Assembly (NCBI GenBank): GCA_017469355.1
Contig: JAFUGM010000003.1
Coordinates: forward strand, 1-44,619
From: Solobacterium sp.
Lineage (GTDB): Bacteria > Bacillota_I > Bacilli_A > Erysipelotrichales > Erysipelotrichaceae
Length of the DNA: 44,619 nt
Direction of reading: 5' to 3'
Shown piece by piece: positions 6,191 to 25,930 of the stretch. Numbering within the stretch: the first letter of the stretch is position 1; the number at the start of each line of letters is the position of its first letter. Below the pieces are notes generated by a model, which was not told the origin of the DNA, ran no database searches, and was given only the letters and a program-made list of their open reading frames with translations. The position numbers and the translations under genes were made by a program.

Positions 6191-6232
6191 ATGCGTGCTC
6201 CTGATGACCTATATTATAGCTCCGCATCGAGA

Positions 6233-7744: not shown

Positions 7745-7792
7745 TGTTTCACCTATCAGGATACACTTCTATTCAGAAAATGACACGGATAT

Positions 7793-7860
7793 GTAACAAA
7801 ATTATGATATTTTTCGTTTAATTCGGTCTAATTGTTACTTAATTTGTTATTTTAGATAAC
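7793..7860. promoter_or_regulatory. AT-rich upstream region with GTAAC/GTTAC inverted repeats; candidate autoregulatory operator
   Basis: Upstream of the HTH-dehydrogenase gene, GTAACAA (7793-7799) faces TTGTTAC (7832-7838), and GTTAT-N5-ATAAC (7846-7860) forms a second palindrome. The neighbouring gene encodes an HTH domain, so self-binding is a reasonable guess. I could not place a convincing -35/-10 pair. Confidence 0.3.
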
Positions 7861-7872
7861 ACCCATTATAAA

Positions 7873-7901
7873 AGCTACCAGAACATACAATTCCGGTAGC
7901 T
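7873..7901 (-). terminator. Rho-independent terminator of the OYE reductase operon
   Basis: AGCTACC (7873-7879) pairs with GGTAGCT (7895-7901), with three more inner pairs. On the minus strand the hairpin is followed by TTTTATAA. It lies 34 bases past the stop of the OYE-type gene and marks the left end of the catabolic island. Confidence 0.8.
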
Positions 7902-7934
7902 CTATCCTTATTAATATAATTAATATAGCGTTGA

Positions 7935-9881
7935 TCAGAGTGCTTCTGCGACCAGCTGCGCATTCATGATCGCATCGGTAATCCGATGCGGCTGCTTTGC
8001 GTCACCGATAACTTCAAACGGAATTCCCTTTGCGGTAAGAAGTTCACTGAGTGATGGATCCGGACGGAATCCAACAGCCGCAATCAGAGTATCCACGCCC
8101 TGAATGGTTTCCAGTTCTCCATTGAACCGATACGTCACATAGTCTTCTCCGACTTCTGTCACTTCTGCGTTTCTCAGAATCCGGCAACCCTTATTCAGTA
8201 ACCGTTCCATCATCAAGGTTCTCTGATAGGTCTTATCATCCGCTGCCACATGATCCATCATTTCGATGATTGTCACGCGTTTTGCGCTGGGGTTGTCATC
8301 GTTGCGGGGATGAATCAGGAACTCTGCTGTTTCGCAGCCTACCGAGCCACCTCCCACAATCACGATATTTCTTCCTGTTGGAACCTTTCCATCCAGCACA
8401 TCTACTGCCGCCAGGGCATGTTCACCAAGGAAGCGCGGACGTACGGGGCGGGCACCATTTGCCAGAACAACCTGGTCAAAGGAGTGCGCGTCAAGATAAG
8501 CTTCATTGACTTCGGTATCTGTTTCTATGGTTACCCCTGCTTCCTTAACCGCATAGATTAAGGACTTCACACCAAGCAGAAGATCTTCCTTTCCATTTGG
8601 AACGGCGGCAGTATGCATGTTTCCACCAAGAGAGTGCTTCGCTTCCGCCAGCGTTACTACGTGGCCTCTTTGCGCAAGAACAGCCGCCGCATGGAGACCA
8701 GAAGGTCCACCGCCAACCACAAGAATCTTCTTTGGACTCTCTGTCGCCACCAGCGGTACGGTTTCTCTTGCGGTCACCGGATTCAATGCGCAGTGAATCA
8801 CTGGTCCGGTTACACGGCCGATACAATCCGTGCATCCCATGCAGTAACGGATCGCTTCGGTTCTTCCCTCTTTCGCCTTATTTGGGAATTGTGGATCTGT
8901 GAGTAACGCTCGGCCAATATATACAACATCCGCCCGCTTCTGCTTCAGCACCAGTTCCGCAATCCACGGTTCATTGATTCGGCCAACGACACCATAGGGA
9001 ATAGTGATGGCTTCTCTCATCCGCTTTGCGATATCGCTGTGCACCGCTTTGGGGGAACCGGATGGCGGTGTGGTAATCCAGAAGGTTTCTGTCGTTCCAC
9101 GGGAGAAATGAATAAAGTTGGCACCTGCTTCTTCTACCTGAGAAGCGATATACATGCCTTCAATCAGAGATTCTCCGCCATACTCGAGCTCTTCCAGAGA
9201 TAGACGGGTAAAGATCGCAAAGTCCTCTCCGCATAATTCCCGAATTCGGCGAATGACCGTTAACAGGAATTTCAGACGAGCATCGGTACTTCCGCCATAT
9301 TCATCTACCCGTTTATTGGATAGCGGAGAAAGGAACGAACCGATCAGACCATGACGATGGCAGGCATGAACCTCTACGCCATCCAGTCCCGCTTTCTTTG
9401 CGCGTAAGGCTGCCTGGGCAAACTCTTCAATGGTTGTTTCGATCACATCGATTGGCATTTCATTTGGCACAATTCCCGCTAACCATCCAGTACGGATCGC
9501 AATCGGGGAAGCTGCCCAGGGAATCATTCCATCGTTGTCTTTTGGAAGACAGGCTGGGCCGCCATGGAGTAATTGAACCACCGCCTTACAGTCATAGGAG
9601 TGAATGGTATCCGCGAGTTTCTTTACCATCGGGATCTGAGAATCATCATATAAGCCAAGATTCGTTAATCCCCGGTAATGAGATTTCTCGGTAATCATGG
9701 CACCTTCTACCGTAATTAAGCCAACGCCGCCAGCAGCTCTAGCCGCATAGTAGGCAATCGCCTCCTCTGTCATTCGATTCTGTGTATCGCAGAGATTGGT
9801 TGTCATCGGCGGCATGAAGATTCGATTCTTCACAGTCATTGATCCGATGGTGATGGGGGTGAATAATTCCTTAAATTCCAT
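7935..9881 (-). CDS. OYE-family NADH:flavin oxidoreductase / enoate-reductase-like, FMN + 4Fe-4S + FAD
   Basis: 648 residues with the three-part build of 2,4-dienoyl-CoA reductase, BaiCD/BaiH and 2-enoate reductase. Residues 1-340 are an OYE TIM barrel (FTPITIGSMTVKNRI; active-site stretch VEVHACHRHGLIGSFLSPLS at 170-187). A Cys cluster follows at 347, 350, 353 and 364. Then come FAD/NAD(P) Rossmann folds (KKILVVGGGPSGLHAA at about 384-399, NIVIVGGGSVGCE near 495). These enzymes reduce electron-poor C=C bonds with NAD(P)H. I chose the ATG at 9881 because AGAGG lies seven bases upstream; an earlier in-frame ATG (9914) would overlap the thioesterase. The Cys spacing C-x2-C-x2-C is one residue shorter than the usual C-x2-C-x3-C. 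Confidence 0.93.
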   Translation of the reverse strand: MEFKELFTPITIGSMTVKNRIFMPPMTTNLCDTQNRMTEEAIAYYAARAAGGVGLITVEGAMITEKSHYRGLTNLGLYDDSQIPMVKKLADTIHSYDCKAVVQLLHGGPACLPKDNDGMIPWAASPIAIRTGWLAGIVPNEMPIDVIETTIEEFAQAALRAKKAGLDGVEVHACHRHGLIGSFLSPLSNKRVDEYGGSTDARLKFLLTVIRRIRELCGEDFAIFTRLSLEELEYGGESLIEGMYIASQVEEAGANFIHFSRGTTETFWITTPPSGSPKAVHSDIAKRMREAITIPYGVVGRINEPWIAELVLKQKRADVVYIGRALLTDPQFPNKAKEGRTEAIRYCMGCTDCIGRVTGPVIHCALNPVTARETVPLVATESPKKILVVGGGPSGLHAAAVLAQRGHVVTLAEAKHSLGGNMHTAAVPNGKEDLLLGVKSLIYAVKEAGVTIETDTEVNEAYLDAHSFDQVVLANGARPVRPRFLGEHALAAVDVLDGKVPTGRNIVIVGGGSVGCETAEFLIHPRNDDNPSAKRVTIIEMMDHVAADDKTYQRTLMMERLLNKGCRILRNAEVTEVGEDYVTYRFNGELETIQGVDTLIAAVGFRPDPSLSELLTAKGIPFEVIGDAKQPHRITDAIMNAQLVAEAL

Positions 9882-9891
9882 AAACATCCTC

Positions 9892-10305
9892 TTATAAATA
9901 ATCAATCGGTTCATTCAGAAACATGAATGAAAACACACCATAGCTGAGCAGGTTGTCGTCCTGATCCTTTACATCTACTGCCACAACCGCAAGCCGTTTT
10001 CCATGTTTGATCTCTTTTGCGTAAGCATACAGTTTCGTACAGTTGAGACCGGGATTGAGAAAGTGAAAGTCACTGTTCGTCGTGGTGGCCTTGATTCCAT
10101 ACCCGGCACATACCGAACCTGCCGCAGTGTCTGCCAGTGTATAGAGACATCCCCCGGCAACCGAGTGAATCTGATTGCGTACCTTGTCGGTGACTTCCAG
10201 TTCGCATACCGCGTATCCTTCTCCAATATCTGTCGCTACCACGCCGACAAGATTCCGGAAGCTTCCGGATTCATTTCTTGCTTTAATGAGTCGTTGATAA
10301 TCCAT
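9892..10305 (-). CDS. PaaI-like hotdog-fold thioesterase
   Basis: 137 residues with the hotdog signature HSVAGGCLYTLADTAAGS (47-64), in which the Gly-Gly and Asp align with the PaaI/YdiI active site, followed by TTTNSDFHFLNPG. PaaI-type enzymes hydrolyse acyl-CoA or aryl-CoA thioesters, often to release CoA from dead-end intermediates. Here it lies one base from the upstream PH-like gene and ten bases before the OYE-type reductase. The likely role is releasing an acid from its CoA ester at the end of the island's pathway, or recycling CoA; the substrate is unknown. Confidence 0.85.
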   Translation of the reverse strand: MDYQRLIKARNESGSFRNLVGVVATDIGEGYAVCELEVTDKVRNQIHSVAGGCLYTLADTAAGSVCAGYGIKATTTNSDFHFLNPGLNCTKLYAYAKEIKHGKRLAVVAVDVKDQDDNLLSYGVFSFMFLNEPIDYL

Positions 10306-10306
10306 G

Positions 10307-10636
10307 TTATTTCTTCATCTGTCGTTCTACGAGCTGTTTCATCTTTTCCGCCATTGGCACATAACCAGGGCGTGTCAGCCATACTCTTGCCTTACGCCCG
10401 TCCTTCAGTTTGAAATCAAGATAGCCCCGCATCATATCCGGTTCCTTGAGAATCACTTCTTCAATCTCATTGACTTTGAAGTACTGAGGTCCTCTGGTAA
10501 CCCATTGATATGGGGTATCAAACCAGCCGGCACGGCGGATATATACCTGATGGGAGTGATTCAGGTATACCGTTCCGTTCTTTGCGCGGAATTTATATTC
10601 CACGTTGTTGAAATTAAACTCTTTCGCACTATTCAT
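10307..10636 (-). CDS. Small protein, possibly PH-like fold, function unknown
   Basis: 109 residues, no signal peptide or membrane segment. The pattern of short strands ending in an amphipathic helix (YFKVNEIEEVILKEP, then GYLDFKLKDGRKARVWL, then a final Lys/Gln-rich helix) resembles small bacterial PH-like domains, but this is a fold-level impression and not a family match. It sits between a terminator-like hairpin and the thioesterase gene, one base before the latter. The ATG at 10636 begins nine bases after the hairpin stem and has no Shine-Dalgarno. It may therefore be translated poorly, or only from read-through transcripts with the hairpin unfolded. Confidence 0.6.
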   Translation of the reverse strand: MNSAKEFNFNNVEYKFRAKNGTVYLNHSHQVYIRRAGWFDTPYQWVTRGPQYFKVNEIEEVILKEPDMMRGYLDFKLKDGRKARVWLTRPGYVPMAEKMKQLVERQMKK

Positions 10637-10645
10637 ACATTAAAG

Positions 10646-10669
10646 AAGGGCGCCCGTAGCAGCGCCCTT
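10646..10669 (-). terminator. Terminator or attenuator between transporter and downstream genes
   Basis: AAGGGCG (10646-10652) pairs with CGCCCTT (10663-10669), plus one inner pair. On the minus strand the stem is followed by CTTTAATG, a short U-rich tail. It lies 11 bases after the transporter stop. It probably lowers expression of the PH-like, thioesterase and OYE genes relative to the upstream operon. Confidence 0.65.
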
Positions 10670-10680
10670 GAGATCCTTTC

Positions 10681-11973
10681 TTACATCGGCCAGAAGATCG
10701 GAGTCAGCACTGCAAGTGCAATCGCTGAAATGATATTCGGGATAATGTTTACGACCGTATAGTCCTTGAATCGATAACCACCCATCATGGTCATGGTAAT
10801 CGGAGACGCACCAACCGGTGTGGAGAACGGCATGTTCGCACCCCAGATGACACAGAGGATTAACGGATAAGCGCTGAATCCTACAGTAGCCGCAACAGCT
10901 GCAGCGATCGGAGTCATGATCAGAGCGGTTCCGATGTTTGTCATGATGTTGGTCATGATTGCGCAGAGAACAGTGAATACGATGAGGTATACAACCGGAG
11001 AAGCGTTGCCAAGAACTCTTACGATCCAGTTAGCTACCATTTCTGCTGTCCCTGCGTTCTTGACACCAGCTGCGAATCCAACGCCGCCGGCGATCAGGAA
11101 GAAGACGTTCCAGTCAGTGGTTTCAACTGCACGCTTGAAGGAAATGGAGTTGGTCATGATCGCAAGGCACATACCCATCATTCCGACCACTGCCAGGTTC
11201 CAGTCCGCAAGTGTGAGACCGATACATACAACCAGGATGATTGCCGGGATCCAGCCCTTGAAGTTCTTCGGATCGAATTCCTTTAATGCGCTGGAGTTGA
11301 GATCCTTCATTCCTTCCGGTTCTTCGAAATCGAATGTCTTAACCATGATGTTATATCCGAAGAAGTAGTACCAGACGATGAAGATCAGCGGTACGATAAC
11401 GCCCGGGATTGCGAGGTCCCACATCTTCATATCGAAGCCCATTTCAGGAAGCAGAGCTGCGATGGAAAGCTGTGTGGTGGAACCGATCATGGAAGCGCCG
11501 CCTCCGCAGACACCAGCGATACCCATCGGCATCAGGAAGTTACGAACCTTGAACTTTCCTCCGGAAGACTGGCAGATCGCGATTGCCAGATACATACCGA
11601 TAACGACACAGGATGTGTTGTTCAGGAATGCGGAGAGCACTGCGACCAGTGTGAACAGCAGAACGATGGTTCCGCGCTCATCCAGTTTGACAACGGAGAG
11701 AAGCTTCTTGCCAAGGAACGCAGCGCAGCCGGTTTCCGCAAGTGCAGTACCGACAACCGCAATACCAAGGCAGAACAGTGTGACAGTGTTCGAGAATCCA
11801 CTTGTGAATTCCGAAGTGCTGATGAATCCGCACAGAACCATCACGATACCACATGCGACTGCGGTAATACCGGATTTAAATACTTCTGTAGCGAAGAGAA
11901 TCAGTGTGACAATCAGTATGATGAGACATACTACTGCCGAATATGGTGCTAAAAGCTCGCCGAAAATTGCCAT
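10681..11973 (-). CDS. SLC13/DASS-type anion permease (paralogue 1)
   Basis: 430 residues, almost entirely hydrophobic, with about 11-12 membrane segments. Two related halves carry the SNT-type motifs of the DASS/ion-transporter superfamily: LNNTSCVV near 117-124, and MTNIGTAL followed by STPVGASP in the C-terminal half. Family members take up dicarboxylates, sulfate or related anions, usually with Na+. AGGGAGGA lies before the ATG. It is 12 bases after the enolase-superfamily gene and is followed by a hairpin. A second permease of the same class lies at 19145-20431, so the island may import two substrates, or a substrate and counter-ion. The substrate is not deducible. Confidence 0.85.
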   Translation of the reverse strand: MAIFGELLAPYSAVVCLIILIVTLILFATEVFKSGITAVACGIVMVLCGFISTSEFTSGFSNTVTLFCLGIAVVGTALAETGCAAFLGKKLLSVVKLDERGTIVLLFTLVAVLSAFLNNTSCVVIGMYLAIAICQSSGGKFKVRNFLMPMGIAGVCGGGASMIGSTTQLSIAALLPEMGFDMKMWDLAIPGVIVPLIFIVWYYFFGYNIMVKTFDFEEPEGMKDLNSSALKEFDPKNFKGWIPAIILVVCIGLTLADWNLAVVGMMGMCLAIMTNSISFKRAVETTDWNVFFLIAGGVGFAAGVKNAGTAEMVANWIVRVLGNASPVVYLIVFTVLCAIMTNIMTNIGTALIMTPIAAAVAATVGFSAYPLILCVIWGANMPFSTPVGASPITMTMMGGYRFKDYTVVNIIPNIISAIALAVLTPIFWPM

Positions 11974-11985
11974 AAGTCCTCCCTT

Positions 11986-13092
11986 TTATTTTTCGACTCG
12001 GTATTCCTCGATGACATCCCAGTTCACCTCTACGCCAATGCCTGGTTTGTTCGGGAAATACATATATCCATCCTCAATTTTTAACGGTTCCTTCAGCAGC
12101 GATTTCGGATACATTCCTTTCTTGAAGTATGCGATTTCGCACGGAAGGCTGATCTGCTTGCTGGAAACAGCGAAGGTAAGACATGCGGCACAGCCAAGAT
12201 CTGTTTCTGCCTGTGTAGAGATCTGTGTCTGCATGTGATTAACTTCGGCCAGATGAACCAGCTTTTTAGATAAGGTGTAACCTGTACGCGGAATCTTGAT
12301 CGCCAGACGCTTGATTGCCCCTAACTGCATCTGACGGTAGGTATCCGGAACAGTAAATGTACTTTCATCGGAAAGTAACGGAATGAGCGGATAACGCTCG
12401 GTGAACTCCTTACGGGTCACGTCATTCCATGCGGGAACCGGTTCTTCAATCGCGTTGACGATACCGGAGAGATGCGCACCGACATACATCAGCTGCTCTC
12501 TGGTATAGAGCTGGTTCGGATCGAGATAGATCTCAAAGTCATCCGGAGCGATCTCACGGATTTCCTTTGCCAGTTCAACGTCTTCCTTGAAGTGTCCGGC
12601 CTTCAGCTTGATTCCCTTGTATCCCTCGGAGATGATCCGTTTGGTTTCCTCCATGATCTGATCATGCGGGAACCAGGAACCTCCCGATACCCAGCAGAGC
12701 GGTACTTTTTCGCGGTACACGCCGCCAAGCAGATATGCGGAAGGAACGCCGAGCAGCTTACCGTTGAGGTCATGAACCGCAACGTCTACCGTTCCCTTTG
12801 CGACAAAGTTGAACGGAGTCTCACTCATCCGCTCCCAGAGCAGTTCGGTATTGAAGGAGTCAATTCCGATAATGCGCGGAATGATCGCTTCCCGAAGTGC
12901 CTGAAGAATGGATTCCTGGGTTTCACCATAGATACCCGTACGGGGAACTGCTTCACCGATTCCATATGTGCCGTCTTCCGCAATCACCTTGATCAGGGTG
13001 TGCTTGGCAACGGAAATCTGTCCGTTTGCCCAATGGGTTTCATATGTCTGCGGTATCGCAATGGGAATCAGTTCAATATCCTTGATCTTCAT
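11986..13092 (-). CDS. Enolase-superfamily enzyme, muconate-lactonizing/mandelate-racemase type
   Basis: 368 residues: an N-terminal capping domain, then a TIM barrel. The catalytic pair KLK (Lys162 and Lys164) is on barrel strand 2. Metal ligands are Asp191 (YLDPN), Glu216 (IEEP) and Asp242 (LSDES). Lys266 (AIKIPR) lies across the active site on strand 6, which places it in the MLE subgroup (muconate cycloisomerase, o-succinylbenzoate synthase, dipeptide epimerase). These enzymes take a proton alpha to a carboxylate and stabilise a Mg-enolate. In this operon a cycloisomerase, racemase or dehydratase step on a carboxylic acid is plausible. It is five bases after alpha/beta-hydrolase 1 and lacks a close Shine-Dalgarno, so it may depend on coupling. 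Confidence 0.9.
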   Translation of the reverse strand: MKIKDIELIPIAIPQTYETHWANGQISVAKHTLIKVIAEDGTYGIGEAVPRTGIYGETQESILQALREAIIPRIIGIDSFNTELLWERMSETPFNFVAKGTVDVAVHDLNGKLLGVPSAYLLGGVYREKVPLCWVSGGSWFPHDQIMEETKRIISEGYKGIKLKAGHFKEDVELAKEIREIAPDDFEIYLDPNQLYTREQLMYVGAHLSGIVNAIEEPVPAWNDVTRKEFTERYPLIPLLSDESTFTVPDTYRQMQLGAIKRLAIKIPRTGYTLSKKLVHLAEVNHMQTQISTQAETDLGCAACLTFAVSSKQISLPCEIAYFKKGMYPKSLLKEPLKIEDGYMYFPNKPGIGVEVNWDVIEEYRVEK

Positions 13093-13097
13093 AAGAC

Positions 13098-13922
13098 TCA
13101 GGCATTTGCCTCATTGAGGAAGTTGTCGATGAGTTCACCGACAATCTCCGGTGCTTCTACAGCGATGAAATGACCATAGCCTTCTACCTTCTTCCACTCG
13201 AGTTTCGGGCAGTTGACCATTCCCTTGATCGCGGTTTCGTAATAATGATCAGGAACGTTCCAGTCATCGGTTCCGCGGATCAGAAGAGACGGACATGTGA
13301 TCTTATCGAGATCACCAGTTACGTCATAGTTGTTATAGAGGGAGAGGTCGCACTTCTTTGTGCGGCCGATTTCCTGGCATACGCCCCACATGATGTGATC
13401 ATGTGCTTCTTTCGGCGCATAGCGACCGATCAGGCTTTCCGAAAAATCCCAGTGGGAGTGCTGGCAGGAAACATACGGGTTATCCAGAAGGTCAACCGTT
13501 GTTCCATAGCTTGTCTGCATCGCCAGAATCTGCGGGCTTCCCTGCATGGAGACCATCGCACGAACCGGATAGTTTTCCGCCAGGTAGTACACCATGTTTC
13601 CGGCAACGGAACATCCGACAACAATCGGATCTTCAATGCCGAGAGCCTGAATGAATGCCCAGGTGAATTCACCATATTCTTCCTTGGTCTTGATTCCGGT
13701 TAAGCCCGGCAGCGGCCAGGATTTTCCATGCGCCGGCATATCGAATGCGACGACGGTATACTTGTCAGCGAAGTATTCCATGAGTCCATGGTACTGACGT
13801 CCTTCACGGCCAGCGGTATGGAGACATACCAGTGTTCCATGAGGATTCTTGGGTCCGTTATTTGTTTCGTAGTAAGTCTTGATGCCTTTGACATCAATAT
13901 AGGTTCCGGTAATGTTAGCCAT
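13098..13922 (-). CDS. Alpha/beta-hydrolase 1, intact Ser-Asp-His triad
   Basis: 274 residues, alpha/beta-hydrolase fold without signal peptide. The nucleophile elbow is GCSVAG with Ser105. The acid is Asp219 or Asp220 in RGTDDW, and the base is His251 in GYGHF. Strand 3 ends in LHTAGREGRQYHG instead of the common HGGP oxyanion loop. It is a clear paralogue of the protein at 14354-15163: both have ETNNGP near residue 20, DMPxHGKSWPL near 60-70, SLIG, EIGR and RGxDDW. The two flank the SCP2-like gene, an arrangement that suggests a heteromeric pair. Likely chemistry is hydrolysis of an ester, thioester, lactone or C-C bond. Confidence 0.9.
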   Translation of the reverse strand: MANITGTYIDVKGIKTYYETNNGPKNPHGTLVCLHTAGREGRQYHGLMEYFADKYTVVAFDMPAHGKSWPLPGLTGIKTKEEYGEFTWAFIQALGIEDPIVVGCSVAGNMVYYLAENYPVRAMVSMQGSPQILAMQTSYGTTVDLLDNPYVSCQHSHWDFSESLIGRYAPKEAHDHIMWGVCQEIGRTKKCDLSLYNNYDVTGDLDKITCPSLLIRGTDDWNVPDHYYETAIKGMVNCPKLEWKKVEGYGHFIAVEAPEIVGELIDNFLNEANA

Positions 13923-13931
13923 AGGTTCCTC

Positions 13932-14324
13932 CTAGTCGCAGAACGCCTTAGCAGTAAGACGTGCAACCTGCGCGATGACAGCGTTGTTCTGACGGTTTGC
14001 CAGAGCGCTTCCAAGATTGGTGAACGGACGATCGCAATGCTTGACGGAAGTAGCCAGCTGGAAGTTGCGGTGTTCGAAGAACGCATTCCACTGTTCCGCA
14101 TCGCCGCTGATTCCGACGTTGTATCCGTTGGAAGGCTGACCGATGAATACATCAATCATCTTTCCCTTGTAGAAGAACATGTTGAATGGAACGTTATCCA
14201 TGATGAAGGTCATGTCGCCGGTGAAAAAACGGCCATCCCAGTAGTTGAGGAATTCGTCTGCTTCCGGACCGTTGATCAGTTCCTGAAGCGCCTTGAATTT
14301 CTGAAGCTTTTCTTCATTCGTCAT
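13932..14324 (-). CDS. Small SCP2-like (sterol-carrier-protein-type) protein, tentative
   Basis: 130 residues with no membrane segment. After an N-terminal helical part, the segment MTFIMDNVPFNMFFY, then YNVGISGDAEQWNAFF, then a helix resembles the beta-sheet and GDAE-W turn of SCP2-like lipid-binding domains. Conservation looks weak, so another small alpha+beta fold (NTF2-like, for example) is possible. Such domains hold hydrophobic ligands or acyl-CoAs. The gene lies between the two hydrolase paralogues (9 and 29 bases away) with a good AAGGAG. It may present a hydrophobic substrate to them, or be the separate SCP2 half of an SCPx system, since the thiolase further up the operon is of SCPx type. 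Confidence 0.6.
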   Translation of the reverse strand: MTNEEKLQKFKALQELINGPEADEFLNYWDGRFFTGDMTFIMDNVPFNMFFYKGKMIDVFIGQPSNGYNVGISGDAEQWNAFFEHRNFQLATSVKHCDRPFTNLGSALANRQNNAVIAQVARLTAKAFCD

Positions 14325-14353
14325 AGTTTTCTCCTTTTTGACTTTCTGTTCTG

Positions 14354-15163
14354 TTATGCTTCGGCATCCTTTAAGAATTTGAGGATGACATTAGAGATCA
14401 GTTCCGGATCTTCCTGCGGATTGTAATGTGAGATTCCGGGAAGCACCTGATATTCCAGATGGCTGGAATTGGAGAGACGCTCCAGGACGGGTTTGTGCAT
14501 TTCTTCGCTTTCCGACCAGTCGTCTGCGCCCCGGATCACAAGTGCCGGACAGGTAATCTTTTTCATGTCTTCTCTTACGTCAAAGCCGTTATAGACACCG
14601 CCGTAGTCTGCGCGCTTGACCCGGCCGATCTCTGTCATGACTCCCCATAAGATGAAATCTCTGTTCTCTTTGGAAACATTGGAGCCGATTAATGAATCTG
14701 TAAAATCGATGTGTGTATGTTGAACACTGGCATAGGGGTGATCGAGATTATCGATAACTGCCTGAGAGACAAACGGAGAGTAGTCGGTACCCGCCATTGA
14801 TACAATCGCCCGTACCGGATAATGCTGGGCAAGGTAGAAACATACGTTTCCGCCAAGTGCACATCCGATACAGATAGGGTTCTCAATGTTCAGTTCCTTG
14901 AATACATCGATGATGAATTCACAGTAACTGGTTGGTGTATCGAGACACTTCAGTCCCTCCAGCGGCCACGACTTCCCGTGACCAGGCATATCAAATGCGA
15001 TCACTTCCAGCTTGTCTTCCAGTGCGTCCATCATTCCGTGAAACTGTCTGGTTTCTCTTCCGGCAGACCCGAAGCAGCACATGACGCCTTCTTCTCTTGG
15101 CCCGTTATTTGTTTCAACGAAGATGGTGACACCGTTGACACTTACGTAACGTGATGTGATCAT
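14354..15163 (-). CDS. Alpha/beta-hydrolase-fold protein 2, nucleophile Ser replaced by Ala
   Basis: 269 residues, paralogue of the protein at 13098-13922 over its whole length. The elbow reads GCALGG, so Ala102 occupies the nucleophile position (codon GCA), while the acid (Asp214/215 in RGADDW) and His246 (GISHY) are kept. The fold is intact and there is no frameshift, so this looks like selected change and not decay. Options are a non-catalytic partner of hydrolase 1, or a Ser-independent reaction using the His-Asp pair; cofactor-free dioxygenases and some lyases of this fold work without a Ser nucleophile. AAGGAGGG lies before the ATG. It is 22 bases after a CoA-transferase gene. Confidence 0.88.
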   Translation of the reverse strand: MITSRYVSVNGVTIFVETNNGPREEGVMCCFGSAGRETRQFHGMMDALEDKLEVIAFDMPGHGKSWPLEGLKCLDTPTSYCEFIIDVFKELNIENPICIGCALGGNVCFYLAQHYPVRAIVSMAGTDYSPFVSQAVIDNLDHPYASVQHTHIDFTDSLIGSNVSKENRDFILWGVMTEIGRVKRADYGGVYNGFDVREDMKKITCPALVIRGADDWSESEEMHKPVLERLSNSSHLEYQVLPGISHYNPQEDPELISNVILKFLKDAEA

Positions 15164-15185
15164 TTGACCCTCCTTTTATGCGTTG

Positions 15186-16373
15186 TCAGATAATTTCCTG
15201 ATCTTTGAGTTCCTGAATCTGTTCTGCGCTGAAGCCGAACACCTCGGAATATACTTCGTCGTTATGTTCGCCAAGATGCGGTGCCGGGCGCTTGATTTCC
15301 GGCATGGTCTCGGACATCTTCACTGCAGAGTTGGTAAACCGCATGGTTCCGGATTCTTCATCTTCAATTTCCGGAAACATGTTTCTGTAAACGGAGAACT
15401 GCTCATCCGCCACAACCTGATCCAGGCTGTAGATCGGTGCGCAGGCAAAGCCGGACGGAAGCAGCTCTTCCATGATCTCGGATGTAGTCTTCGTAGTGGT
15501 CCAGGCTTCTACGATCTTATCCAGCGATTCGCGGTTCTTTACGCGGAGCGGATTGGTCGCATAGAGCGGATCATTCACCAGTTCCGGACGGCCCATCTTT
15601 TCACAGAGGATTCCCCAGAACTTCGGCGCGGAACCGTTGATGACCATATAGCCATCGGCGGTATGATATCCTCCGCCAGGAGCGGAAGAGGTGTAAGCGT
15701 TACCATTCTTGGTCGGAACTTTACCGGTGGTGAGATATACCTGCATCATGGATGCTTCTGCGGTAATACAGCCATCCACAAGCGAGATATCAATCTTCTG
15801 ACCTTCACCGGTTTTGTCTCTGTGACGTAATGCCGCAAGGACACCAATGACAAGATTCAATCCACCCATGACATCGCCGAAGGAAGCACCGCAGCGTACG
15901 GGATCATCCTGCGGCCAGCCGGTGATACTCATAGCGCCGCTCCATGCCTGAGACATGGTGTCATAGCCTGCACGATACTTATACGGACCAGTCGCACCGA
16001 ATCCGGAAATGGATCCGTAAATGATGCCAGGGTTAACCTTCTTGAGGTCTTCATAGCCAAGACCGAATTTTTCCATCGTTCCCGGACGGAAGTTCTCGAT
16101 CACGACATCGGCGTTCTTTACCATCTCCAGGAAGACATCCTTCCCCTTCTTGAGGTTCAGTGTGATGCCGCGCTTAGAGCGGTTGAAGTTCTTGTAGTAA
16201 TAACTGACGCCATTCTTCTGTGGAGCGAAGTTACGGCTGTCATCTCCGGTTCCCGGATTTTCAATCTTAATTACGTCCGCGCCCATATCTCCAAGCAGAG
16301 CTCCGGCAGAGGGAGCTGCCAGAACTCTTCCGAGATCCAGTACACGGATACCTTCCAATGCACCTGTAGTCAT
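15186..16373 (-). CDS. Family III CoA-transferase (CaiB/BaiF/Frc type), copy 1
   Basis: 395 residues from the ATG at 16373, preferred over an ATG at 16394 that overlaps the thiolase and has no Shine-Dalgarno; GAAAGGA lies before the chosen start. The family N-terminus is GIRVLDLGRVLAAPSAG (8-24), followed by FNRSKRGITLNL (63-74) and the catalytic Asp138 in AGYDTMSQ, which forms the aspartyl-CoA anhydride. These enzymes swap CoA between carboxylates without ATP. It probably activates the imported acid or moves CoA from product to new substrate. The second copy at 20658 has a closely similar active site but lies on the other strand. Confidence 0.92.
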   Translation of the reverse strand: MTTGALEGIRVLDLGRVLAAPSAGALLGDMGADVIKIENPGTGDDSRNFAPQKNGVSYYYKNFNRSKRGITLNLKKGKDVFLEMVKNADVVIENFRPGTMEKFGLGYEDLKKVNPGIIYGSISGFGATGPYKYRAGYDTMSQAWSGAMSITGWPQDDPVRCGASFGDVMGGLNLVIGVLAALRHRDKTGEGQKIDISLVDGCITAEASMMQVYLTTGKVPTKNGNAYTSSAPGGGYHTADGYMVINGSAPKFWGILCEKMGRPELVNDPLYATNPLRVKNRESLDKIVEAWTTTKTTSEIMEELLPSGFACAPIYSLDQVVADEQFSVYRNMFPEIEDEESGTMRFTNSAVKMSETMPEIKRPAPHLGEHNDEVYSEVFGFSAEQIQELKDQEII

Positions 16374-16380
16374 GAATTTC

Positions 16381-17586
16381 TTATCCTTTCTCATTTCCCA
16401 GAATCAGACATGCGGCGATCTGAGGGGGACCACCGAAGGTCTGGGAAAGTCCGATATGCACATCCTCCAGCTGACGCTCCGGGTTATCTACCTTGTGCTG
16501 CAGCTGTTTGTAGATTTCATATGTCATGCGGATTCCACTGGCTCCGACCGGATGACCGAAGCACTTTAGACCGCCGTCCACATTGACAGGTAATCCGCCT
16601 GTCCGCTCAAAGAATCCGTCGTTGATGTCCTTGATGGCTTCACCGCGCTTGGAGAACCCGAAGTCTTCATAGATTGCCATTTCGGTAATGGAGAAGCAGT
16701 CATGTACTTCTGCCAGATCAATCTGTTCGCGAGGATTGGTGATGCCAGCCATGTCATATGCCATCGCAGCGCAGTTGCGCAGTGCTTCAAAGCTGGACCA
16801 ATCGAATTCACGCGGACGATAGTGCGGCGTGATCATGTCGGTCGCACAACCGAAGCCCTTGATGTAAATCGGATCTTCACGGTAGTTCTTCGCAAGATCT
16901 GCACGGGTGATGATTGCGCATGCCGCACCATCCGAAGTTCCGCAGCAGTCAAACAGACCTAACGGGGATGCGATCATCGGCGCTGCCATTACCTGTTCCA
17001 TCGTGAGACGGTTATGGAAATGCGCCTTCGGGCTTAAGGAGCCGTTGTAATGATTCTTGATATCGATCTTCGCAAGCGCGGTCTTGATATCGTCATAGGA
17101 GTAACCGTACTTCTTGCCATAAGCTTCTGCGATCAAAGCGAAGGAACCTGGCGCATCACGTCTTGCCTCACGAACCGGATCCAGACCACGGCCGATACCC
17201 ATACCGGCATAGCCTTTGTCCTTGAGCTTTTCGGCACCGATGGCCATGGCGATATCACACATTCCGCTGGAAACTGCGAGAATCGCATTGATGAGAGCGA
17301 TATGTCCAGAGGTACACCAGTTCTCATTGCGAGTTACCGGAATGCCATGAAGCTTTAATGCGTCAGTTACCGGAGTACCGGAACAGTTGTTGGGAGCGTT
17401 GGTATTTGCGAAGTAGCAGACTTCCACATCTGAAGCCTGAATGCCTGCGTCATCAAACGCTTCAAATGCCGCATCGATAATCAGATCGGAAAGACCGGTG
17501 TCCCAGCGCTCTCCGAATTTTGTACAGCCCATTCCGATGATGGCTACTTCATCCCGGATCTGCTTGTTCTTAAAGTACTTTTTCAT
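16381..17586 (-). CDS. SCPx-type thiolase / acyl-CoA acetyltransferase-like
   Basis: 401 residues of the thiolase superfamily, SCP2-thiolase branch. Nucleophile Cys91 is in NWCTSGH. The HD box is EVHDCFS (His295), and the general base is His345 in CFGHPVGASG. The protein starts VAIIGMGCTKFGERW, typical of lipid-transfer-protein thiolases, which in bacteria often act with a separate OB-fold DUF35 partner. That partner is fused to the adjacent gene (17587-19026), which ends exactly where this one begins. Expected chemistry is Claisen-type C-C cleavage or acyl transfer. The retained Cys argues against a pure Ltp2-style retro-aldolase. The C-terminal FGGPPQ replaces the usual second-Cys region, as in other SCPx members. 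Confidence 0.92.
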   Translation of the reverse strand: MKKYFKNKQIRDEVAIIGMGCTKFGERWDTGLSDLIIDAAFEAFDDAGIQASDVEVCYFANTNAPNNCSGTPVTDALKLHGIPVTRNENWCTSGHIALINAILAVSSGMCDIAMAIGAEKLKDKGYAGMGIGRGLDPVREARRDAPGSFALIAEAYGKKYGYSYDDIKTALAKIDIKNHYNGSLSPKAHFHNRLTMEQVMAAPMIASPLGLFDCCGTSDGAACAIITRADLAKNYREDPIYIKGFGCATDMITPHYRPREFDWSSFEALRNCAAMAYDMAGITNPREQIDLAEVHDCFSITEMAIYEDFGFSKRGEAIKDINDGFFERTGGLPVNVDGGLKCFGHPVGASGIRMTYEIYKQLQHKVDNPERQLEDVHIGLSQTFGGPPQIAACLILGNEKG

Positions 17587-19026: not shown

Positions 19027-19089
19027 TCGATTTTCCTTTCTTTTCTGATTTTCTGTTTACGACTTCATACTAGCTAACCGGCAATCCCA

Positions 19090-19114
19090 CTTTCCTCCCA
19101 CAAACAGAGGAAAG
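19090..19114. promoter_or_regulatory. Inverted repeat CTTTCCTC-N9-GAGGAAAG, candidate operator
   Basis: A perfect 8-bp inverted repeat in the 118-base gap between transporter 2 and the HMGS-like gene. The minus-strand sequence after it has no U run, so it is a poor terminator. A TAGTAT hexamer lies downstream toward the HMGS-like gene, with the repeat near the -35 position. Related half-sites occur at 20446-20473 and 20522-20542. Confidence 0.4.
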
Positions 19115-19144
19115 GGCTTACACAGTTTTTCTATGTTCTTTGAA

Positions 19145-20431
19145 TCAGAAGCCGATGATGAAACGAAGTGAGCACAGTGCTACGAGCACAACGTACGCAA
19201 CGATATTGAAGGGACCACCGATTTTCTGATAGTCCTTGAAGGAATAGCCTTCCGCAAGCGTCATTGCGTAGGAAGCTACACCGAGCGGTGTTGCGTAACC
19301 ACACATGACGAAGCAGGTGACCATGTATATAAATAAGGTAGGGTTCAATCCCATCTGCTGTGCCAGCGGGATGAAGATCGGAGTTAACAGAGAAATGGTT
19401 GCGGTATGAGAGAGCAGGTTGGACATGATTGCACACATGAGACCAAACACCGCTACAACAATCACGACAGAAGCATTTGTGCCGATGAGATTAACAAGAC
19501 CATTTGTGACATAGGCTGCAGCACCAGAAGCGTTCAGACCCTTCGCAACACCAAGTGTCGCTCCGACAACAACCAGGGAATTCCATCCCATCTTTTCGAA
19601 TGCAGTTTTTGCGGAGAGGCAGCCAGTTACGATGCACGCAAGACCTGCAAGAGTTGCTATGGTACCGGAAGACCAGATTCCGGAAAGGAACAGGCCTACC
19701 ATGACGACGAGAATAACGAAGCAGGTATACATCTTGGGATTACGTACCTCTTCCTCTTCTCCAGCCTTTTTCATCTCTGCGATATAGTCGGGCTCATCCG
19801 GCATATAGGCAACGCTCTTTACCAGTGGTTTGTATGCGATGAATGCGAACCATACCGCAAGCAGAATTAAAAGCGGGAATCCAGTCAGTCCGAGTTCGAA
19901 GAACGTAAAGGTACGAAGTCCTTCCTGTTCCAACATGGACTGGGATACCAGCTGAGGTGTGGATCCTACTAATGTACAGGCACCGCCTACCATAGTGGAA
20001 ATGCCCACCGGCATGACGATATGTTTCGCCTTGATTTTTCCGTCTGAAGCTGCGGCTACCGAACGAATCAGCGGCAGAAACATCGCCATAACGGAAGAGT
20101 TGCTTGTGAATGCGGAGAGAATACCCGCCACCATAATGAGAACGAAAATCATTTTCCTCTCATTAAAGCCAACTGCTTTGATAATCTTCTTACCGATGAA
20201 CTGTGCCGCTCCGGTCTGAAACATTGCTTCACCGACAATCATCGTTCCGGCAATCATAAATACCGTATCGTTGGAGAATCCCGAGAATACGGTGGATTTA
20301 TCAATAATTCCCGTCACAAAGAATGCCAGACATCCAAGCAGTGCAGTTACCCACAGCGGATAGACTTCGCTGACAAATCCAACAATCATAAGAAGAATGA
20401 TGACGAAGGATATTGCGATCTGTAATGTCAT
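19145..20431 (-). CDS. SLC13/DASS-type anion permease (paralogue 2)
   Basis: 428 residues with about 11-12 membrane segments, starting MTLQIAISFVIILLMIVGFV. SNT-type motifs are LSAFTSNSSVMAMFLPL near 109-125 and MSNLLSHTATISLLTP in the second half, with HTAT in place of the usual SNT. The loop after the N-terminal half carries an acidic, Glu-rich stretch (KKAGEEEEVRNPK). It is the first gene of the minus-strand island operon, with GAAAGGAAGGAAG before the ATG. The candidate -10 TAGAAT (complement of 20462-20467) is inside an inverted repeat. Likely role is sodium-coupled uptake of a carboxylate used by the pathway. Confidence 0.85.
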   Translation of the reverse strand: MTLQIAISFVIILLMIVGFVSEVYPLWVTALLGCLAFFVTGIIDKSTVFSGFSNDTVFMIAGTMIVGEAMFQTGAAQFIGKKIIKAVGFNERKMIFVLIMVAGILSAFTSNSSVMAMFLPLIRSVAAASDGKIKAKHIVMPVGISTMVGGACTLVGSTPQLVSQSMLEQEGLRTFTFFELGLTGFPLLILLAVWFAFIAYKPLVKSVAYMPDEPDYIAEMKKAGEEEEVRNPKMYTCFVILVVMVGLFLSGIWSSGTIATLAGLACIVTGCLSAKTAFEKMGWNSLVVVGATLGVAKGLNASGAAAYVTNGLVNLIGTNASVVIVVAVFGLMCAIMSNLLSHTATISLLTPIFIPLAQQMGLNPTLFIYMVTCFVMCGYATPLGVASYAMTLAEGYSFKDYQKIGGPFNIVAYVVLVALCSLRFIIGF

Positions 20432-20445
20432 AATCTGCTTCCTTC

Positions 20446-20542
20446 CTTTCCTGACCTGGTCATTCTAGGAAAGAAGCACCCCTGTCATCATCCTGTCGAA
20501 CTGCAGTATCTCTGCGTTGTTTTTCCTGTTTTTCTAGGAAAG
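20446..20542. promoter_or_regulatory. Divergent control region with two AGGAAAG inverted repeats
   Basis: The 226-base gap between transporter 2 (minus) and CoA-transferase 2 (plus) holds two inverted repeats: CTTTCCT (20446-20452) with AGGAAAG (20467-20473), and TTTCCT (20522-20527) with AGGAAAG (20536-20542). TTCTAGGAAAG occurs in direct orientation in both. The first overlaps the likely -10 (TAGAAT, minus strand), so a bound regulator could block it. The left half-site also serves as part of the transporter Shine-Dalgarno, which weakens the argument. The PucR protein encoded nearby is a candidate binder. Confidence 0.4.
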
Positions 20543-20657
20543 ATACACAGAAAACACCCAGACTTCCTTTTTCATTGAAAAATACTCGCAGTTTCTTCCA
20601 ACTTTTATCGGATGATTCCAGGTGTCTGTTTTTTGTACCTTATACGTGGAGGACATT

Positions 20658-21860
20658 ATGTACGACGCGTTAACAGATGGTTCTGCTTTACAGGGACTGA
20701 AAGTGCTTGATCTCGGGCAGATGATTGCCGGTCCGTTCTGCGCTGCCATCATGGCAGATATGGGAGCGGATGTGATTAAAGTAGAGTCTCCTTCCGGGGA
20801 CCTTTCCCGCAATTCCCTTCCTAAAGTGAATGGGGAAAGCACCTATTATGCCAATTTCAACCGTTCCAAACGTGGGATTACGTTAAATCTCAAAAGCGAA
20901 CAGGGAAAAGAGGCATTACGGAAACTGATCACCACTGCAGATGTGCTGATCGAAAACTTCCGCCCCGGAGTGATGGAACGGCTGGGCTTCTCCTATGAAG
21001 AATGTACAAAGCTGAATCCATCATTAATATATGCGTCTGTTTCCGGATTCGGTCAGAAAGGTGACTATGCGTCCCTTGCGTGCTTCGATCCGATTGCCCA
21101 GGCAATGAGTGGTCTGATGAGTGTTACCGGACCGATCGGCGGACCGAATATCCGCTGTGGTGCCTCCATAGGCGACATTATGGCTGGCCAGAATGCATTG
21201 ATCGCAATTCTTGCGGCACTGCATTACCGTTCGCTTACCGGAGAAGGTCAATACATCGATATTGCTTTGACGGATGCCTGTATTGTGGCGCTGTCTTCCT
21301 TGAATGCGGTATACAACACCACCGGCCGGGTTCCCGGCCCCCATGGTAACTCCTTCGACGCCACTGCTCCTGGCAACACTTACCGCACCAAAGATGGAGT
21401 CATCTCCATCTCGGCTGGACAGGTACGGGAGTGGCCGAAGTTTGTCAAAGTCCTTCACCATGAAGAATGGCTGGATGACCCGCGCTTCTCTGTTGTAGAA
21501 AAACGGGTTGAAAACCGCGATCTTCTCGATCACCTGATTGAGGAGACCACCCTGCAGTACACAACCTCGGATCTGATTGATCAGCTGCGGGCAGTCGGTC
21601 TGCCCTGTGCACCAATCAACTCCATCGAAGATGTGGCGAATGACCCTCACTTCCGCGATGAGAGAAAGATGTTTGTGGATATCGATCATCCGGTCATCGG
21701 AAAAGTCCGAATTACCAATCAGGGCATCAAGATGACCAAAACGAACCCGTATGTGCGCTCTTCTTCGCCTGTACTTTCCCAGGATACCGATGCGGTTCTT
21801 TCCGAACTCGGATACTCTGCGGAAGAGATTCAGGACATGCGTACAAACGGAGCTGTCTGA
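20658..21860 (+). CDS. Family III CoA-transferase (CaiB/BaiF/Frc type), copy 2
   Basis: 400 residues from the ATG at 20658, which has GGAGG five bases upstream; earlier in-frame starts lack one. The N-terminus is GLKVLDLGQMIAGPFCA (13-29), then FNRSKRGITLNL (67-78) and the catalytic Asp144 in CFDPIAQ. It is a close relative of the copy at 15186-16373 but is transcribed alone, away from the main operon, and stops at two strong hairpins. Having two CoA-transferases suggests two acids to activate, or separate activation and CoA-recycling steps. Confidence 0.93.
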   Translation: MYDALTDGSALQGLKVLDLGQMIAGPFCAAIMADMGADVIKVESPSGDLSRNSLPKVNGESTYYANFNRSKRGITLNLKSEQGKEALRKLITTADVLIENFRPGVMERLGFSYEECTKLNPSLIYASVSGFGQKGDYASLACFDPIAQAMSGLMSVTGPIGGPNIRCGASIGDIMAGQNALIAILAALHYRSLTGEGQYIDIALTDACIVALSSLNAVYNTTGRVPGPHGNSFDATAPGNTYRTKDGVISISAGQVREWPKFVKVLHHEEWLDDPRFSVVEKRVENRDLLDHLIEETTLQYTTSDLIDQLRAVGLPCAPINSIEDVANDPHFRDERKMFVDIDHPVIGKVRITNQGIKMTKTNPYVRSSSPVLSQDTDAVLSELGYSAEEIQDMRTNGAV

Positions 21861-21871
21861 GTAAATCCCGG

Positions 21872-21928
21872 ATACCTGCGGAAGTTCCTATTCTCAAAAT
21901 CCTTTTTGTTCTCCTCTTCCGCAGGTAT
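21872..21928 (+). terminator. 13-bp inverted repeat with 31-base loop after CoA-transferase 2
   Basis: ATACCTGCGGAAG (21872-21884) is perfectly complementary to CTTCCGCAGGTAT (21916-21928). The loop is long and the U run after it is poor, so it may not terminate on its own. It could protect the mRNA 3' end or bind a protein. Confidence 0.45.
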
Positions 21929-21945
21929 TCTATGCCAAACCCCAC

Positions 21946-21985
21946 AAAAAAATCTGTTGTCCTATCCTCCTCAACAGATTTTTTT
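21946..21985. terminator. Bidirectional rho-independent terminator between CoA-transferase 2 and pucR
   Basis: A7TCTGTTG (21946-21959) pairs with CAACAGAT7 (21972-21985) around a 12-base loop. A and T runs on both sides allow termination of both convergent genes. Confidence 0.85.
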
Positions 21986-21993
21986 GTTTGTAA

Positions 21994-23580
21994 TTACTCT
22001 TCTGCCTGATCTGCGGTATACAGCAGATAAACCATATACAACATCATCCGATCCTTTGTCTCAAAGTAGTTATATCCAGTCAGTATTTCAATCTTCTGAA
22101 GACGGTAACGAAGCGTAGAGATGTGGATAAACAGATCCTTGGCCACCGAATCAAGCGTTGGCGCATAGAAACAATGAACCATGGTATCCCACAGCGTCAT
22201 GTCATACTTTTTGTCATACTCCTTGATCGGATTGATGATTTCCCGAAAGAGAATGGAGCTGGTGCTGGTATGTAAGGCATGAGACAGAAGTCCGATCTCC
22301 AGATAATCCGTATAGAAATAACAGCTCTGTTCCGGATTCATCATTGCGCCATAATGAATGGCTTTCTTTGCCTGGGAATAGCAGTCAGAAATCTGATGGA
22401 ATTTGGATACAATCAGAGAAACACCAAACTGGAACGAAACAGATACAGAATCACTTACCTGCGCACACGCCTTTTCGATCAGTTCCTTCATCTGGGTGTT
22501 GGTTACCTTCTGCAGTTCCGATACCAGAACGATGAAGAGGTCTCCCTGCTCAAAGGCGATGGCAGAGGTGATATACCGTTTAAAGATGTTCTGAACCACC
22601 TGTCCCCGCACAGCCTTTTTCTCTGCAGAAGTCTGCTTGAGCAGAATTAATGCATGTTTATCATTCGGCACAAAGCCAAACAGCTTGAGCCGATCAATCG
22701 TCAACATCTCATTGACGTTATCGGAAAACAGGATATCATCGAGAATCGCCGATACCAGTTCCCGCTTTGCCTTATCCTCTATGACATGTTCAAACAACAT
22801 GATACTGATGGTTCTGGACATGGATTGAACCATGTTGTAAGAGAATGGATCCGGGCCTTCTGTAAAGCAGACATAGATATATCCATTCACTTCCTTCTGG
22901 TTCCCGCATGGTACCAGCAGCTCTTTTCCCTTTTCCCAACAGGCAAGTTCGGGATCCTTGCGAATCTGTCTGCGGTATTCTTCTACCGCCTGGGTTACTT
23001 CTTCCTTCCCCCGACGCATTTCCGGAAGATTGCTTTCGACAATAATATTCAGTTCCGCATCTGCTAAACAACAATAACATTCTGCCTTTGAGGTAAATGC
23101 GTGAAATACTTCTTCCATCGATCCCCCGCGGAACAGGATGTCCTGCAGTTCTCCCTCAAAATCAATGGTTTTCTGCGTTAACAGAAACTGATCATCCGCA
23201 ATATAGGAAAGTGAGGACGAGAGAATCTCCCGGAAATAGGTTTCCTTGTCTACCGTAAGAATCGGTACCCGATACCGTTCTCCGACCGCAATGATATCTG
23301 GATTGATGTGGTCCACATAGCGTCCAAGCTTAATCGCAATCGCCGCCACATTGGCCCGGCAGAGATCCTCCACTACTTCCAGCACCTTCGCCTCATCTTT
23401 GTGATAGGCAGAAAGCGTTGTAAGAATCATCGTTTTGGAGTCCAGCGTATCGATGTGAAAATCCGGTGTTTCCATGACGGTAAGGTAAAGCACTTCATTG
23501 TCCATCCCGCGCTCAGAAACAACACCCACATGATTCTGGTAAATCGGTAATGATAAAAGGTCTTTTACAGTAATTGCCAT
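21994..23580 (-). CDS. PucR-family transcriptional regulator
   Basis: 528 residues. The N-terminal PucR domain (about 1-125) starts MAITVKDLLSLPIYQ. A central GGDEF-like/CdaR region follows, and the C-terminus carries the PucR-type HTH (LDSVAKDLFIHISTLRYRLQ, about 485-504, then KIEILTG). Family members such as PucR and CdaR control purine, sugar-acid or aromatic catabolism genes in response to a metabolite. It is encoded at the right edge of the island, convergent with CoA-transferase 2, so it is the likely local regulator. AGGGTGG precedes the ATG. Upstream, TCCTA-N6-TAGGA (23666-23681) resembles the AGGA half-sites in the island's promoters. Confidence 0.92.
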   Translation of the reverse strand: MAITVKDLLSLPIYQNHVGVVSERGMDNEVLYLTVMETPDFHIDTLDSKTMILTTLSAYHKDEAKVLEVVEDLCRANVAAIAIKLGRYVDHINPDIIAVGERYRVPILTVDKETYFREILSSSLSYIADDQFLLTQKTIDFEGELQDILFRGGSMEEVFHAFTSKAECYCCLADAELNIIVESNLPEMRRGKEEVTQAVEEYRRQIRKDPELACWEKGKELLVPCGNQKEVNGYIYVCFTEGPDPFSYNMVQSMSRTISIMLFEHVIEDKAKRELVSAILDDILFSDNVNEMLTIDRLKLFGFVPNDKHALILLKQTSAEKKAVRGQVVQNIFKRYITSAIAFEQGDLFIVLVSELQKVTNTQMKELIEKACAQVSDSVSVSFQFGVSLIVSKFHQISDCYSQAKKAIHYGAMMNPEQSCYFYTDYLEIGLLSHALHTSTSSILFREIINPIKEYDKKYDMTLWDTMVHCFYAPTLDSVAKDLFIHISTLRYRLQKIEILTGYNYFETKDRMMLYMVYLLYTADQAEE

Positions 23581-23815
23581 AACAAACCACCCTAACTGAA
23601 TTCATTTTATTTGGACATGACGCCTGCTCGCTGTCCTGCATATCTATGAAAATCATCATAGTCTCTCCTATAAAAGTAGGAACAGCTACAGTTTGTGTAT
23701 TCTGTTAATCATATGTATATTTGGGCAACCAATTGGTAATAATTCACTGAATGTAAATTATTTCAGTAATTTCTGTAAATATTTGAAATTATTTCAAAAT
23801 TTCTTACATTTTTTC

Positions 23816-23844
23816 TTGAATTCAAACTTATTCCCTTCTAGAAT
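23816..23844 (+). promoter_or_regulatory. Promoter of the asparagine synthetase T-box transcript
   Basis: TTGAAT (23816-23821), 17-base spacer, TAGAAT (23839-23844). Transcription would start near 23851, just before T-box stem I. The 230 bases between pucR and this point are AT-rich with short palindromes and no gene. Confidence 0.7.
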
Positions 23845-23854
23845 ACAGGGTATA

Positions 23855-24115
23855 AAGAAAGCGATGCGGAAGAAAAGTACTCCGGACTGGCCGAATACAG
23901 AGAGCGGGCGATGGTGAAAGCCCCGCAGAAGCACCCGGATGAAGAACCCTTCCAAGCCCAAACCGAACACGATAATGTAAGTAGGGGCGGCGTGAAAACG
24001 GCACGTTATCCCCGTTGAGACTTGTCTGAGTCTTTTGAGAAGCAATTCAGGTGGCACCACGAAGCGGCCGCATTCGTCCTGATCCTATGATCAGTGCGGT
24101 CCGTACAGGAGGTGT
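23855..24115 (+). promoter_or_regulatory. T-box leader, asparagine-specific, possibly translational
   Basis: Stem I spans about 23870-23955 with GGAAG/CTTCC at its base, the AGTA loop element, and the AG-rich bulge CAGAGAGCGGG. The specifier loop holds AAC (23945-23947), an Asn codon. The T-box AGGTGGCACCAC is at 24049-24060; its UGGC would pair with a GCCA tRNA end, as in tRNA-Asn. The antiterminator forms from CAGG/CCTG and ACGAA/TTCGT. The competing hairpin (24066-24102) has no U run. Instead TCCTG (24077-24081) is complementary to CAGGA (24106-24110) of the Shine-Dalgarno. Confidence 0.88.
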
Positions 24116-24121
24116 CATTTT

Positions 24122-25702: not shown

Positions 25703-25726
25703 TTTCCTATACACAAAATATTCGCA

Positions 25727-25928: not shown

Positions 25929-25930
25929 TT

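Follow-up and report, generated by a model that had tools for sequence, protein, structure and literature searches.

Which substrate, and which reactions, are served by a block of 14 genes (positions 7935–23580) in a stretch of Solobacterium sp. DNA of 44,619 nucleotides (contig JAFUGM010000003.1; the window, equivalent to contig C79 of a 2.69 Mb host genome in 92 contigs)? The block, here called the island, consists of a PucR-type regulator gene and 13 genes for enzymes, transport or binding. A sequence-only reading had taken it for a CoA-dependent catabolic module acting on a carboxylic acid, perhaps cyclic, branched or phenolic. All 14 genes were confirmed at their positions, as were the families named, namely DASS/CitMHS (SLC13-type) anion symporters (two), family III CoA-transferases (two), an OYE/FadH-type enoate reductase, a muconate-lactonizing enzyme (MLE) family member, a thiolase and a PaaI/4HBT thioesterase; a fusion of an HMG-CoA synthase (HMGS)-like domain to DUF35 had been absent from that list. 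Our interpretation, to which we assign a probability of roughly 0.6, is that the island encodes a catabolic route under PucR control, gained by horizontal transfer, in which a small and probably dicarboxylic acid is finally cleaved by thiolysis. Overall, the earlier interpretation is partly supported.

Conservation and acquisition of the island

When the same gene set was sought in other genomes, all 14 island genes were found in two other Erysipelotrichaceae metagenome-assembled genomes (MAGs; loci L001 and L002); the nearest relatives of the island were found in a Solobacterium MAG and in an Erysipelotrichaceae MAG from sheep duodenum. In L002 the gene for CoA-transferase a (CoAT_a) lies on the same strand as the other island genes and pucR at the opposite end, yet all genes are kept, indicating that linkage survives rearrangement. 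A core comprising the HMGS-like/DUF35 protein, the thiolase, CoA-transferase b (CoAT_b), a 130-aa protein and the alpha/beta hydrolase abh2 is also present in Clostridia (L003 from chicken, L004, L005, L006, and L007 with L021, where it is divided between two contigs), with identities mostly of 61–82%. Gene order is preserved across the Erysipelotrichaceae and, for the core, across Lachnospiraceae and other Clostridia, whereas the flanking genes vary. A PucR orthologue is encoded in the L001, L002, L003, L005 and L006 regions, being kept in Clostridia where the locus is long enough. Co-conservation of the island genes is far beyond chance. The unit is rare, occurring in just one further genome of the 146 from the family, only in its own genome in a class sample of 296 and in one (its own) of 391 Clostridia; a wider search of the order also turned up the HMGS-like gene, 72% identical, in one more member of this genus.

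In four congeners mfd-pth-u268 is followed after about 1–3 kb by rnpA-yidC-jag, whereas in the window the u268–rnpA interval (6190–25965) spans ~19.8 kb, the island being accompanied there by asnB and a UDP-glucose dehydrogenase gene. The island is flanked by other genes in L001 and L002, and its G+C content is 49.3% versus 46.9% and 44.4% on its two sides. The site empty in congeners, the different flanks and the G+C content together suggest that the island was most likely acquired as a lineage-specific insertion. No direct repeats bracketing the island were found, and the window contains no tRNA genes. The earlier description of the island as adjacent to oriC holds physically, with dnaA at 30101 and DnaA boxes at 30022 and 30102. 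A meaning of this position for the pathway was rejected because the four congeners lack the island there and other carriers have different flanks, and the adjacency is most likely incidental.

A thiolase with an inactive HMG-CoA synthase-like partner

The nearest match of the thiolase was an archaeal ACAT (6esq_A, 4e-60), followed by other archaeal-type thiolases, BbsB (6e-39) and PhlC (8e-22). The HMGS-like part of its partner is nearest to archaeal HMGCS (4e-31) and then to PhlA, whilst the DUF35 part, a zinc-ribbon/OB domain, matches 6esq_E at 352–473 (E 2e-10), has a zf-ChsH2 match and carries the ribbon cysteines CKKC..CDCC. All three components of the archaeal ACAT/HMGCS/DUF35 complex are represented, and the thiolase cysteine is kept. 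In 26 homologues, drawn from gut bacteria, catabolic plasmids and other Bacillota_A, the thiolase residues Cys91, His295 and His345 were invariant (26/26). By contrast, the HMGS-like catalytic Cys was absent from all 26, with Thr105 in the window protein; the Glu site aligns with Thr and the catalytic His site is also lost. The island protein differs from its archaeal counterpart in lacking these residues and in being fused to DUF35. With all three lost, HMG-CoA synthesis is not expected and a mevalonate role was rejected. A retro-aldol role, as in Ltp2/Sal-type thiolase relatives, was judged unlikely given retention of the nucleophilic Cys and both His residues. Such pairs tend to be annotated as HMG-CoA synthase or acetyl-CoA acetyltransferase, and a mevalonate pathway may then easily be called in error.

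The window clade formed a monophyletic group with support of 100/100, and its branch was long (1.17). Amongst 14 distant Bacillota_A loci (33–39% identity) an acyl-CoA dehydrogenase gene lay within about 9 kb of the pair in 11, and a hydroxyacyl-CoA or SDR dehydrogenase gene lay within the same distance in 13, often along with genes for a crotonase or MaoC hydratase and a CoA ligase or CoA-transferase. Plasmid relatives occur in similar settings, for example on plasmids of Novosphingobium ES2-1, Variovorax SRS16 and Rhodococcus DK17. On the window-type branch no beta-oxidation-type partner genes were found near the pair in any of seven loci, their place being taken by front ends of acid-isomerising, hydrating or reducing type. 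Because its distant and plasmid relatives sit among beta-oxidation-type and other degradation genes, the thiolase/HMGS-like pair is best read as the thiolytic end of a CoA-dependent degradation. If correct, this would supply a function for a widespread pairing of an active thiolase with a dead HMGS-like/DUF35 protein.

A partial parallel is found in operons for anaerobic CoA-dependent degradation such as the benzylsuccinate bbs genes, which share with the island a family III CoA-transferase (1.5e-53 for the Bbs enzyme) and a DUF35-linked thiolase, BbsB. The bbs operons differ from the island in also having genes for an acyl-CoA dehydrogenase, a hydratase and a dehydrogenase. Five of the distant clusters (L073, L074, L075, L077 and L084) contain genes for an acyl-CoA dehydrogenase, proteins of ~318 and ~293 aa, hbd, the pseudo-HMGS, the thiolase and crt; genes for a sigma-54 regulator and an OYE are also present in some. 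In L073 both the ~318-aa and ~293-aa products match Pfam CoA_trans, a pair that we take to be a candidate likeness of ring-cleaving IpdAB-type hydrolases.

CoA-transferases, abh1 and the 130-aa core protein

In both CoAT_a and CoAT_b the PF02515 match spans the full profile and the catalytic Asp is present. The nearest solved relatives of CoAT_a are the BAIF-type 4ed9 and SUGCT (9br6), and those of CoAT_b are YfdE (4hl6) and SUGCT (9br6); judged by these matches, both are closest to dicarboxylate enzymes. In all three orthologues of the hydrolase abh1 (window, L001 and L002) Ala occupies the position of the nucleophilic Ser, with Asp and His remaining, and the protein may be a pseudoenzyme partner of abh2. 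Sequence searches with the 130-aa core protein found nothing, and Pfam SCP2 was matched by none of eight orthologues. Its AlphaFold model (pLDDT 85), however, had SCP2-type proteins as all eight best Foldseek matches (probability 0.91–1.00, E 0.002–0.1, TM 0.47–0.61), and a sterol carrier protein 2 (SCP2) fold is predicted.

Proposed pathway

In the route that we propose, the two DASS/SLC13 symporters would bring in a small acid, unsaturated or hydroxylated and probably dicarboxylic, which the MLE-type enzyme, the OYE-type reductase and the serine hydrolase abh2 might convert to a beta-keto acid. The two CoA-transferases would load CoA taken from another acyl-CoA, and the thiolase, held in a complex by the dead HMGS-like/DUF35 partner, would cleave the beta-ketoacyl-CoA by thiolysis, giving acetyl-CoA and an acyl-CoA of shorter chain. 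The latter could pass its CoA on to the following round or feed into the host crt/hbd/bcd pathway. The SCP2-fold protein, whose gene adjoins abh2, and the Ser-less abh1 would probably be substrate-binding or partner subunits, and the PaaI thioesterase may recycle trapped CoA. As an outline, the combination of import, CoA loading and thiolysis has reasonable support. We infer the middle steps, the class of substrate and the order of reactions, as well as operon transcription, formation of the complex and the catabolic direction.

Other genes at the Clostridial loci encode fumarase I alpha/beta, LeuC/LeuD, MmgE/PrpD, PrpF, a 2-hydroxyacid dehydrogenase, TAXI-TRAP, DASS, NhaC and AbrB-like proteins and a third hydrolase. 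The fumarase-, LeuCD- and PrpD/PrpF-type genes and the TRAP/DASS transporters point to a dicarboxylic substrate, and nothing favours the cyclic or phenolic acid of the sequence-only reading over a small dicarboxylic one. As the front ends vary (MLE and OYE versus fumarase, aconitase and PrpD types) around a fixed core, the data suggest that different starting acids converge on one general type of beta-keto acid. The catabolic, CoA-dependent character proposed earlier is sustained by the movement of the genes together between species, the degradative setting of the distant thiolase pairs, the dicarboxylate-like CoA-transferases and the presence of transport and regulation genes. If the proposal is true, gut bacteria would have in the island a transferable means of degrading a small organic acid, probably of dietary or host origin, with the core (CoA-transferase, SCP2-fold protein, hydrolase, thiolase pair and PucR) as a testable unit.

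Several observations weigh against this interpretation. The OYE, MLE and abh1 genes are confined to the Erysipelotrichaceae version, the island holds no substrate-specific marker gene, and the roles given to the SCP2-like protein and abh1 are guesses. PhlACB (PDB 5M3K), the nearest complex of known structure in which an HMGS-like subunit is dead, is biosynthetic.

One point of the sequence-only reading is weakened. Genes for acyl-CoA dehydrogenase, enoyl-CoA hydratase and hydroxyacyl-CoA dehydrogenase, expected in a classical beta-oxidation operon, are absent from the island, as that reading had observed, but are encoded elsewhere in the host genome in a complete thl-crt-hbd-bcd-etfB-etfA cluster of the butyryl-CoA pathway type (G000:C4, L031, 1313–7294).

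In agreement with the earlier reading, no described pathway with the exact gene set was found in the literature searched (most subscription journals outside it); its parts come from known enzyme families. A bolder proposal, which we consider unlikely, is that gut Firmicutes possess an undescribed type of anaerobic pathway. In this a beta-keto diacid would be formed without beta-oxidation, by lactone/diacid isomerisation, reduction and hydrolysis, CoA would be added by family III transferases, the thiolase would be scaffolded by a dead HMG-CoA synthase, and an SCP2-fold protein/hydrolase pair would be a new obligatory component.

Alternative explanations

The most specific version of the catabolic route, an anaerobic analogue of the lower beta-ketoadipate pathway, is in our view unlikely. 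The MLE would interconvert a muconate-like diacid and its lactone, abh2 would hydrolyse an enol-lactone to a 3-oxo-diacid, and a CoA-transferase and the thiolase complex would yield first the 3-oxoacyl-CoA and then a succinyl-CoA-like product and acetyl-CoA. The same kinds of enzyme do occur in the known pathway (CatB, PcaD, PcaIJ and PcaF), and the dicarboxylate-type CoA-transferases would fit. The MLE protein has the KxK subgroup residues and matches best the muconate cycloisomerase model and 3dg3, and the best NCBIfam models for abh1 and abh2 are of PcaDC/PcaD type. These scores are far under the curated cut-offs, at 151.8 versus 334.95 bits for the MLE and 49–56 versus 255.85 bits (TIGR02427) for the hydrolases, and although structural matches of abh2 include the enol-lactonase 2xua, abh2 is matched equally well by generic alpha/beta hydrolases. 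Furthermore, the island has no muconolactone isomerase, PcaIJ or PcaF relative (PcaIJ is of family I and PcaF of another thiolase family), its host is anaerobic, and MLE is absent from the Clostridial versions.

Ordinary short-chain acyl-CoA catabolism, with the island providing uptake, CoA loading and thiolase and the genomic crt/hbd/bcd/etf genes the beta-oxidation steps in trans, appears improbable. The complete host cluster and the direct adjacency of such genes to distant relatives of the thiolase pair are consistent with it. That cluster, however, already has its own thiolase, the seven close loci have no such genes nearby, and no role would be left for the MLE, the OYE, the SCP2-like protein and the two hydrolases.

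We consider it very unlikely that the island is biosynthetic, encoding a PhlACB-like C-acyltransferase that makes a small acylated product. The three-component architecture is shared, and in both systems the thiolase-type subunit has the active Cys whilst the HMGS-like subunit is degenerate, lacking Cys and Glu; in the Pseudomonas acyltransferase Gly115 replaces Cys in PhlA and the active Cys is in PhlC (PMC6392133). PhlACB differs in its separate PhlB, in aromatic C-acylation without added CoA and in its biosynthetic gene context. No polyketide synthase gene, including a type III (phlD) neighbour, and no obvious export gene is among the island genes, which instead include two uptake-type symporters and two CoA-transferases; the thiolase is much nearer to archaeal ACAT than to PhlC, and its distant relatives sit in degradation-type operons. 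Least probable of all is an island transforming steroids, bile acids or flavonoids, for although the OYE has BaiCD as its best NCBIfam model, family III CoA-transferases include BaiF, and an SCP2-fold carrier and gut hosts would suit such a role, the OYE lies outside the core and scores 462.5 bits against a BaiCD cut-off of 825 (below all specific cut-offs, as a FadH/BaiCD relative), and the transporters and Clostridial partner genes suit small polar acids.

Gene layout and regulation

Features of the island are listed in Table 1. Twelve genes from 20431 to 7935 lie on the minus strand with short gaps or overlaps, and CoAT_a is divergent. Start positions were corrected from ribosome-binding sites or orthologue alignment, to 9881 for the OYE gene and most likely 20658 for CoAT_a, an ATG downstream of GGAGG. 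The compact arrangement with terminators described earlier was recovered, with three clear hairpins followed by T-runs, although the overall terminator scan was not above chance (19 versus 15.5 +/- 4.1).

Table 1. Coordinates of island genes and associated features in the window
Feature	Position	Strand	Remarks
PucR-type regulator, 528 aa	21994..23580	-	PucR, GGDEF_2 and HTH_30 domains
Bidirectional terminator between CoAT_a and PucR	21946..21985		Hairpin and T-run sequence
Family III CoA-transferase a (CoAT_a), 400 aa	20658..21860	+	Catalytic Asp144; PF02515
Divergent control region	20432..20657		CTTTCCTAGA repeats; candidate operator TAGAAAAACAGGAAAA
DASS/SLC13-type anion symporter a (DASS_a)	19145..20431	-	
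HMG-CoA-synthase-like domain fused to DUF35, 479 aa	17587..19026	-	Core gene
Thiolase (archaeal ACAT/SCP2-thiolase type)	16381..17586	-	Core gene; Cys91, His295, His345
Family III CoA-transferase b (CoAT_b)	15186..16394	-	Core gene; catalytic Asp145; PF02515
Alpha/beta hydrolase 1 (abh1)	14354..15163	-	Nucleophile Ser replaced by Ala102
130-aa protein	13932..14324	-	Core gene; no Pfam match; predicted SCP2 fold
Alpha/beta hydrolase 2 (abh2)	13098..13922	-	Core gene; Ser105, Asp219/220, His251
MLE subgroup member	11986..13092	-	K162, K164, D191, E216/E217, D242, K266
DASS/SLC13-type anion symporter b (DASS_b)	10681..11973	-	
Terminator 3' of DASS_b	10646..10669	-	9 bp stem, 6 G-C
DUF4429 protein, 109 aa	10307..10636	-	
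PaaI-like hotdog thioesterase (PaaI/4HBT)	9892..10305	-	
OYE/FadH/BaiCD-type flavin enoate reductase, 648 aa	7935..9881	-	
Terminator 3' of OYE gene	7868..7901	-	Sequence

Both the PucR N-domain and HTH_30 are present in the regulator. Within the divergent control region, CTTTCCTAGA is repeated on the minus strand at 20533–20542 and 20464–20473, and a candidate operator, TAGAAAAACAGGAAAA, near 20521–20537 is common to L001 and similar in L003. The best total for TAGAAAAACAGGAAAA was 125 versus at most 111 in shuffles (15 resamplings), for a purine-rich motif in which two of the sequences are close relatives; it is a possible PucR operator and is offered as a lead only.

An unusual fusion lies beside the island: the UDP-glucose 6-dehydrogenase open reading frame (6233–7744) also encodes, without a break in frame, an N-terminal Cro/CI-type helix-turn-helix domain (residues 19–71, E 1.8e-9).

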